Shown: piece by piece, positions 29,442-30,328 of the stretch | How the letters are laid out: each line of letters begins with the position of its first letter | Numbering within the stretch: the stretch's first letter is position 1 | Assembly: GCF_000383975.1 (NCBI RefSeq) | Contig: NZ_KB913017.1 | Coordinates: 2,035,527 to 2,099,526 of the forward strand | Length of the DNA: 64,000 nucleotides | Reading direction: 5' to 3' | Source of the DNA: Natronorubrum tibetense GA33 | GTDB lineage: Archaea; Halobacteriota; Halobacteria; Halobacteriales; Natrialbaceae | Position numbers and translations under genes: made by a program | Notes under the pieces: model-generated | Seen by the model: only the letters and a program-made list of their open reading frames with translations | Databases searched by the model: none | Told to the model about the DNA's origin: nothing

Positions 29442-29529
29442 CCCGATTCGAACTACAGTCGACGCCGCAAAGTCTGCTGGCTGGTAAGCGTCTCGAGCGA
29501 CTCGAGAGCCGTCTTCCTTATACGCTGAA

Positions 29530-30090
29530 CAGGTGCAATACCACGGCCTTCAGGCCGTGGATACGCGCCGTCACTTAGTGCCACATTCCACCGTCAAGAG
29601 CATAGTCGAGTTTCCGATCCTAACGTTCAAGTTACAAGAGTCCCCATAGGCTGGTAAGGTCAGGTGGGAACGGAGCGGATTCCGAACGATCTTCGGAGGC
29701 GGCCTGCCCGCTACCCAACGAGGCAATATCCGAAACGCTGACGCGGTGAACACGAATCCTCGAAGGGTTCGTCATTGTGCCCGTCGGTCGAGCAAGCCCG
29801 ACGATAACTCCGAGTTCGTCGACGTGTCAGCGGCCCCCTGCTGGCAAAAACAACAGATGGGAGCCAAAGACACAGAGGATAGGAGTAACGGCGGTTTGGC
29901 ACCGCCAGTCAGCCACCGTCACGATGGCTGGGTTAGATGTGGGCTCCCGTAAAGTGGCGGAGTCATGGTTGCGAACCTGAAACTCCCACCGCTCGGGATT
30001 CCTGCGTTAACGAGACGCGACGCGTCTCGTTCGCACACCAGAACGCGGAGCGTTCTGGGGACGTCTTCAGGCGCAGGAGGATGTCAATAC
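29530..30090 (+). mobile_element. Decayed IS200/IS605-type element (PATE-like)
   Basis: The left part is a 20-base hairpin CCACGGCC TTCA GGCCGTGG (29541-29560). The right part (about 29855-30083) contains successive hairpins at 29890-29906 and 29911-29929, and a three-way junction: outer CCTGCG/CGCAGG (30001-30006 with 30072-30077) enclosing AACGAGACGCG/CGCGTCTCGTT (30009-30031) and CCAGAACG/CGTTCTGG (30038-30058). The segment with GTTTGGCACCGCC...GGTTAGATGTGGGCTCCCG and GAACCTGAAACTCCCACCGC is what I recall from the 3' end of haloarchaeal TnpB genes, where an overlapping guide-like RNA is transcribed. No TnpA or intact TnpB is present; a 67-codon open frame ending at 29980 may be the TnpB tail. 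Confidence 0.6.
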
Positions 30091-30328
30091 GCCTTGTTTC
30101 ACGGGACTGCAGGGCCCCACGAACCGTTCGCGCGGCGTTGTCACCCGACTGCAAGCGACTCCGTCGGAATCGCCCACTCCGAAAGAGCGCAGAGCGCAAA
30201 GCGCCTTGTTGCGGATTTTGTCGATGGATGACGCGCTGTCGGACAGCGACGCTGCCGTCAGTAGGACGGACCGTAGCGCGAAAGGTCGTATCGATGTTCT
30301 TTTGAGCGACGGCCGTCTTCCGTCGCAC

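Follow-up and report, generated by a model that had tools for sequence, protein, structure and literature searches.

A protein-less IS200/IS605-type element of Natronorubrum tibetense with a guide-RNA-like 3' domain

Is a stretch of haloarchaeal DNA that looks like a transposon without its proteins a decaying fragment, or a complete element with an RNA that could be used in trans? The question is raised by an interval (positions 29,530 to 30,090) of a 64,000-nucleotide piece of the genome of Natronorubrum tibetense GA33, contig NZ_KB913017.1, positions 2,035,527 to 2,099,526; this whole stretch is referred to as the window. A sequence-only reading had taken the interval for an IS605-like remnant that kept an RNA-like right end. 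TnpB and its guide RNAs reportedly have a part in element retention, as Meers is said to have described in 2023.

The closest known elements are the PATEs (palindrome-associated transposable elements) of Haloquadratum walsbyi, described as having near-terminal palindromes, ends like those of IS605-type elements and too little length for a transposase, with terminal-only forms of 52 bp (PMC3119063). One of them, HqIRS71, contains part of the sequence encoding the TnpB C-terminus, and none of its ORFs is intact (PMC3119063). On the RNA side, sotRNAs are treated as omegaRNAs, and in the passages cited here only those tied to tnpB are discussed (PMC12558985).

Results and discussion

The interval is the insertion of a complete element and not a worn fragment. 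A whole-genome DNA search found a second copy on the opposite strand (G000:C1:647583-648152, G000 being the window's genome); the two differ at 8 of 570 bases (98.6% identity), with no gaps, and have unrelated flanks. As they match over exactly 570 bases, the unit was taken to run from TTAT at 29518 to TCAA at 30087 (Table 1). The sister species G108 has its own 97% identical copy elsewhere in its genome, and the joined flanks of the window copy are there one contiguous stretch of 504 nt (86% identity, TTAT itself not being conserved), so the window site is empty in G108. At the site of the second copy the flanks of relatives matched only as separate pieces and no clean empty form was found. 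The two copies, their differing flanks and the empty site show that the element has moved in the past; it may have done so without target duplication, the exact junction at the G108 site being blurred by divergence. The IS605-like part of the earlier description thus stands, but the decaying remnant does not: the element is full-length, has a second copy and an empty site, and belongs to a large conserved family.

Table 1 Features of the element and its surroundings (positions in the window)
Feature	Position	Strand	Basis
TTAT, presumed target site kept 5' of the element	29518..29521	+	both genomic copies begin matching here
Complete non-autonomous IS200/IS605-type element (PATE), 566 bp	29522..30087	+	3' end TCAA; second copy, empty site
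Left-end subterminal hairpin, 8 bp, TTCA loop: CCACGGCC-TTCA-GGCCGTGG	29541..29560	+	sequence
Conserved non-coding 5' domain (GGTCGGAACGGAGCGGATTCCGAACG...GGCGGCCTGNCCGCC...)	29656..29855	+	near-invariant runs in relatives
Guide-RNA-like (sot/omegaRNA-like) domain	29843..30087	+	covariance model R1; Rfam sot0042
Former TnpB codons, DRSNGGLAPP here, DRSNGWLAQP or similar in TnpB	29875..29907	+	TnpB 3' ends of the same genome
Predicted long-range helix, GGAGT pairing with ACTCC at 29982-29986	29882..29886 (5' strand)	+	consensus fold, 98.8% of cells paired
Predicted stem-loop SL1, GGCGG-TTTGGCA-CCGCC, strongly covarying	29890..29906	+	45-element pairing count
Right-end hairpin CCTGCG/CGCAGG, loop interrupted by cassette	30001..30077	+	cassette-free relatives, several reading CCTGCGTCTTCAGGCGCAGG
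Double-hairpin cassette, 57 nt, inserted after CG in right-end hairpin	30007..30063	+	R2, 83.6 bits at 30005-30063
TCAA, 3' terminus of element and site of right-end cleavage	30084..30087	+	55 of 56 collected elements end in TCAA
Host flank, would-be guide if transcription runs through the right end	30088..30107	+	presumed position, by analogy with TnpB omegaRNA

Near-terminal palindromes are present at both ends, and the ends are of IS605 type. The left end is 91% identical over 76 bp to that of L034, a TnpB element of the same genome (1463 bp, with a 449-aa frame containing OrfB and TNB domains) whose right end is of the same type, with GAGGATGTCAA in common. The left hairpin, noted earlier as a perfect 8-bp stem, is exact in the window copy and has two mismatched pairs in the second. 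With these palindromes, such ends and no transposase, the label PATE-like was apt.

Two terminal-only elements of about 53 bp, in which the left-end hairpin runs directly into the right end, were also seen in this genome (G000:C2:74850-74902 and G000:C1:2675728). They are like the 52-bp core-deleted PATEs reported from Haloquadratum. A second PATE type with a related guide-RNA-like 3' part occurs there too (L074, C1:2687619; L075, C2:76371; L077, C3:238580). Its left end, TTATACAAAGCAAGG, is different and was seen in L074 and L075, L077 being cut by a contig end.

At its length the element cannot encode a transposase. Of the 22 OrfB_IS605 and 3 Y1_Tnp domains in the genome not one falls within it, and two ORFs that span it have no Pfam match at E ≤ 1, which agrees with the earlier remark that TnpA and most of TnpB are missing; an autonomous IS200/IS605 element would encode Y1 TnpA and TnpB, and neither is encoded here. 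A protein-coding element was rejected on these ORFs and on the 1-nt indels and differing open frames among elements. The element probably survives by borrowing the proteins of other elements in the cell. One genomic TnpA has a domain without in-frame stops, and the element that carries it has a similar hairpin at its right end, ahead of GTCAA. The two other TnpA (Y1) genes, at G000:C2:224409-224768 and 225648-225938 (L043 and L045), are broken by in-frame stops.

The family is widespread. When 125 genomes of the taxonomic family were searched with the element DNA, matches at E ≤ 1e-20 were found in 53 genomes and 19 of the 29 genera, some being the shared left end only, as in L034. Plasmid records matched in 76 cases at E ≤ 1e-5, 14 of these covering 80% or more of the element, with the best places in Natronorubrum, Halobacterium, Halomicrobium, Halarchaeum and Natrialba; most of the 40 plasmid places listed have no annotated feature in a gene table that is itself incomplete. 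Carriage by phages was rejected: among phage records nothing matched the window element at E ≤ 1e-5 or a relative of group B at E ≤ 1, and the other PATE type of the genome had a 32-nt match and no more.

A chosen subset of the family-wide matches was fetched and 76 loci were compared with the element. Those with a definable right end and a length of 480-660 bp were kept, giving 56 elements of 508-629 bp, the left start being extrapolated in several; the family thus measures roughly 510-630 bp and is found in many haloarchaeal genera. TTAT begins 48 of the 56, the other starts being extrapolated or diverged, and the 20-nt flanks directly downstream, where we presume the guide to lie by analogy with TnpB omegaRNA, differ in all 56. 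The motif used for excising the RNA was held by 49, which gave 30 representatives below 95% identity: alignments of 17 and of 7 were used for counting, and six with other cassettes were left out of both. In the 5' domain, long near-invariant runs alternate with variable stretches (24 elements including the window's, below 93% mutual identity in the 5' part). It is non-coding, with 1-nt indels and longest open frames that vary between elements; as a guess, it may serve as a promoter or form a 5' domain of the RNA.

A three-way junction had been noted in the right end as part of a guide-like RNA, and its stems are exact in the sequence (6 bp, 30001-30006/30072-30077; 11 bp, 30009-30019/30021-30031; 8 bp, 30038-30045/30051-30058), the 11-bp stem being 10 bp in practice because its loop has 1 nt on paper. 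The junction is, however, the result of a cassette insertion, and as a guide-RNA core it was rejected: the cassette is at that position in 3 of the 56 elements (the window copy, the second copy and the G108 copy) and missing there in 53, most relatives having a plain short right-end hairpin. The same right-end cassette is also found in element L101 and in three partial right ends from other genomes.

The cassette, of about 57 nt, reads CGTTRACGA...TCGTTCGCACACCAGAA...TTCTGGGGACG, is flanked by CG, occurs in both orientations and sometimes adjoins or lies inside other cassettes. Double-hairpin inserts of 49-57 nt account for 31 insertions at five PATE positions in 27 of the 56 elements, one element having a 107-nt nested pair; L136 has a 96-nt insert, which was excluded as a tandem duplication. 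Two PATE copies from different genomes, with 3 of 517 bases differing, are distinguished by two clean 56-nt insertions. According to the cassette model R2, the cassette at PATE position 388 is of the same family as that at 492, but reversed, while those at 183, 206 and 476 have a similar layout only, with a weak R2 match or none. A scan with the cassette core gave at least 120 stretches, and all 80 loci listed (L199-L278) bear haloarchaeal record titles; the stems covary and the linkers are constant. R2 has matches in all ten genus genomes. The 49 of 61 R2 matches that reach 40 bits were compared with TnpB genes and 24 strong PATE matches: 17 adjoin TnpB genes or PATE RNAs, where about 0.5 would be expected, and 21 do so if four weaker R1 matches, hand-picked for their position beside cassettes, are added. 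The varied positions, the clean insertions and the neighbourhood of IS605-type elements indicate that the cassette behaves as mobile DNA and not as part of the guide RNA.

One cassette is nested between the two hairpins of another in PATE L123 (G058), and the same layout was seen by eye in L040, in the right end of a TnpB element of the window's genome. The SMR-A repeats of H. walsbyi, which measure about 110 bp and have prominent inverted terminal repeats, also target the palindromes of PATEs and IS605-type elements (PMC3119063). Both are small gene-less repeats inside near-terminal palindromes, but the cassette, with 57 nt, two internal hairpins and ends limited to CGT/ACG, is set apart from SMR-A as described there.

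The earlier reading saw a likeness to the 3' end of haloarchaeal TnpB genes, where a guide-like RNA is made, and named such similarity as one of its tests; it was found. By sequence and predicted fold the 3' 245 nt of the element is a homologue of the guide RNAs (sot/omegaRNA) of haloarchaeal TnpB. The window copy scores 193.2 bits (E 4e-59) with covariance model R1, for which 16 relatives, all PATEs, were used and the window copy was left out. Rfam sot0042 (RF02656) matches it on the + strand over the full model (1-174 at 29822-30015), with 18.6 bits and E 0.035 against a gathering score of 88. All 20 PATE loci given to the model (of the 56 collected) were matched along the entire model and on the strand of the element, with E from 1e-11 to 1e-3; none of these PATE RNAs attains the gathering score, the best having 54.9 bits, and a 55.6-bit match at the edge of L088 is another RNA and was not counted. 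When 20 of the 22 TnpB loci were given as a control, sot0042 was found at the TnpB 3' end in 9, 7 of them above the gathering score; a tenth match, in L036, belongs to a remnant without TnpB that lies upstream of the gene there. Rfam HgcC has sub-threshold matches to the same RNA on 8 of the 20 PATE loci (E 8e-4 to 0.94), outscoring sot0042 in L117, and such matches arise on TnpB loci too.

A genome search with sot0042 at E ≤ 0.1 gave 15 matches and missed the second PATE copy; comparison with the domain search showed 6 of the 15 to be without a TnpB domain upstream. At L191 (G000:C1:1970664-1970893) a TnpB-type guide RNA with 86 bits to sot0042 follows a short C-terminal TnpB remnant.

R1 was then run over ten genus genomes and the 72 of 135 matches with at least 40 bits were used. 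None of the 24 matches at 75 bits or more has a TnpB domain upstream, whereas 38 of the 48 between 40 and 75 bits sit 254-342 nt beyond the 3' side of a TnpB domain, the expected place of a guide RNA. This bimodal distribution suggests that the PATE RNA has the fold of TnpB guide RNAs and yet forms a TnpB-less subfamily of its own. It resembles sotRNAs in the full-length model match, in SL1, in the right-end hairpin and in an RNA domain that ends at the right end of the element (RF02656), and shares the scaffold fold of omegaRNAs by sot0042, R1 and covariation. It is unlike them in lying in an element without tnpB, so that it overlaps no tnpB 3' end, in scores below the gathering threshold and in its distinct sequence. 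The ten genus genomes yielded no TnpB with a scaffold of PATE type. As the PATE RNAs are consistently unlike the guide RNAs of the TnpBs in the same genomes, recognition by those TnpBs is not assured. PATE-type RNAs (at least 75 bits) are present in the five genus genomes with the most TnpB domains (14-28) and were not found at that score in the five with the fewest (1-12), a perfect split with a chance of 1 in 252, but this correlation may merely reflect general mobile-element load.

The former coding sequence was compared with its pairing. At SL1 the TnpB genes of the genome read NGWLAQP or a close variant, the window PATE reads NGGLAPP and relatives have other changes. All five pairs of SL1 are nevertheless intact in 43 of 45 elements, ten with cassettes in SL1 and L110, which lacks the motif, being left out of the count. 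By parsimony, on a tree made without SL1, its two variable pairs changed 14 times, and the combinations seen are GGCGG/CCGCC, GGCCA/TGGCC, AGCCG/CGGCT, GGCAG/CTGCC and GGGGG/CTCCC. In the whole fold 96.7% of cells pair in the 17-sequence alignment and 97.1% in the 7-sequence one. Covariation in relatives had been named in advance as a test, and it was found: the score is 0.160 against 0.094 for shuffled and at most 0.036 for slid alignments (17 sequences), and 0.215 against 0.146 and at most 0.052 (7 sequences), with none of 500 shuffles reaching the score in either case; the structure counted was derived from the same two alignments, and slid controls and the G-U count favour such a structure. 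Further pair types showed no excess over shuffles in either alignment (417 and 366 of 500), nor did pairs with double changes in the 17-sequence alignment (131 of 500). On these comparisons, pairing was kept by compensatory changes after coding was lost. In Watson-Crick columns G-U cells outnumber A-C cells by 29 to 4 (17 sequences) and 12 to 3 (7 sequences), which favours an RNA of the + strand, on which the structure itself was predicted. Folding energy was rejected as a proof of RNA: the 3' 248 nt folds better than 200 of 200 dinucleotide shuffles (z -3.87), but the opposite strand does likewise (z -4.64).

These results bear on the possibility that the TnpB 3' region is a hitchhiker without RNA function in a PATE mobilised by TnpA. 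A haloarchaeal PATE that has a C-terminal TnpB segment and whose ORFs are disrupted is already known, and the terminal-only elements of about 53 bp in this genome suggest, as the authors of that work do, that ends alone may suffice for mobility (PMC3119063). The anatomy fits in part only, however, and compensatory evolution argues against it: SL1 pairing survives repeated paired changes, about 97% of the fold is paired in both alignments and the conservation of the 5' half is patchy and not uniform. We therefore regard this explanation as unlikely. The H. walsbyi PATEs have the palindromes, the type of ends and the shortness in common with the window element; their TnpB segment is called non-coding, with no RNA proposed in the sections cited, while the present family has a guide-RNA fold with covariation across genera (PMC3119063).

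Somewhat less likely still is a trans role for the RNA in which it does not guide: it might keep TnpB occupied as a decoy, or regulate TnpB or TnpA. A scaffold that is TnpB-like yet distinct from the guide RNAs of the resident TnpBs would suit such a role, as would the frequency of TnpB-less guide-RNA loci in the genome, and a decoy RNA would fit the same element anatomy. The retention of TCAA in nearly all elements speaks against it, in that a read-through transcript would carry a new guide at each site, although TCAA is expected for transposition too.

Y1 transposases recognise hairpins in single-stranded DNA, as established for IS608. The end hairpins are indeed conserved, but that the hairpins as a whole are single-stranded DNA structures of transposition and not RNA is very improbable, as the covarying SL1 and the multibranch domain lie deep inside the element, enclosed by long-range helices and just where a known ncRNA family is placed, and G-U exceeds A-C.

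The explanation that we prefer, and think rather probable, is a protein-less PATE that is moved by TnpA in trans and whose RNA may guide resident TnpBs. The evidence covers the mobile unit, the loss of protein, the guide-RNA homology, the kept pairing and the uninterrupted TnpB and TnpA frames in the genome. A TnpA (Y1 transposase) encoded at another locus would recognise the end hairpins and move the element as single-stranded DNA between TTAT targets, TTAT doubling as the TAM for TnpB. Transcription of the 3' half through TCAA into the flank would give a TnpB-type guide RNA, with the conserved fold as scaffold and the host sequence directly after TCAA as guide. Resident TnpBs, whose own guide RNAs have the same fold, could load this RNA in trans. 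The loaded TnpB would then cut the empty TTAT-plus-guide site left by excision, and repair would restore the element.

Transcription of a PATE has been reported in virus HRTV-DL1 and its host, where the end portion of a 489-bp element is strongly transcribed and likened by the authors to an ncRNA, the reads being mainly antisense to a predicted ORF (PMC10544981). The PATE was placed by eye at about 612-1090. R1 over 8 kb of HRTV-DL1 gave at best 9.8 bits, outside the PATE, and sot0042 gave nothing at E ≤ 1 over bases 400-1700, so this PATE was rejected as a transcribed member of the family and its transcription serves as an analogy only. No further description of TnpB-less guide-RNA elements or of the cassette was recognised in the literature covered, mostly listings together with term searches in PMC11656645 and PMC11870625.

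Conclusions

Taken further, the family can be seen, tentatively, as a long-lived lineage of RNA-only transposons, composed of ends, 5' domain and TnpB-type guide RNA, that would parasitise the transposase and nuclease of others and reprogramme TnpBs at each insertion site, overlaid by widespread cassettes of about 57 nt that enter hairpins in either orientation; this is a serious possibility that we hold with some reserve. The cassette shows how an RNA junction of complex appearance can arise from small palindromic modules without belonging to the functional core. Should TnpB guide RNAs be able to persist without TnpB, the IS605-type retention system would be a shared resource open to cheaters, and protein-less elements could direct one resident TnpB to many sites. 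This may help to explain how haloarchaea came to have numerous IS605-like elements that lack their own transposase. The PATE RNAs are natural, genome-encoded candidates for trans guide RNAs, directly testable in haloarchaea.
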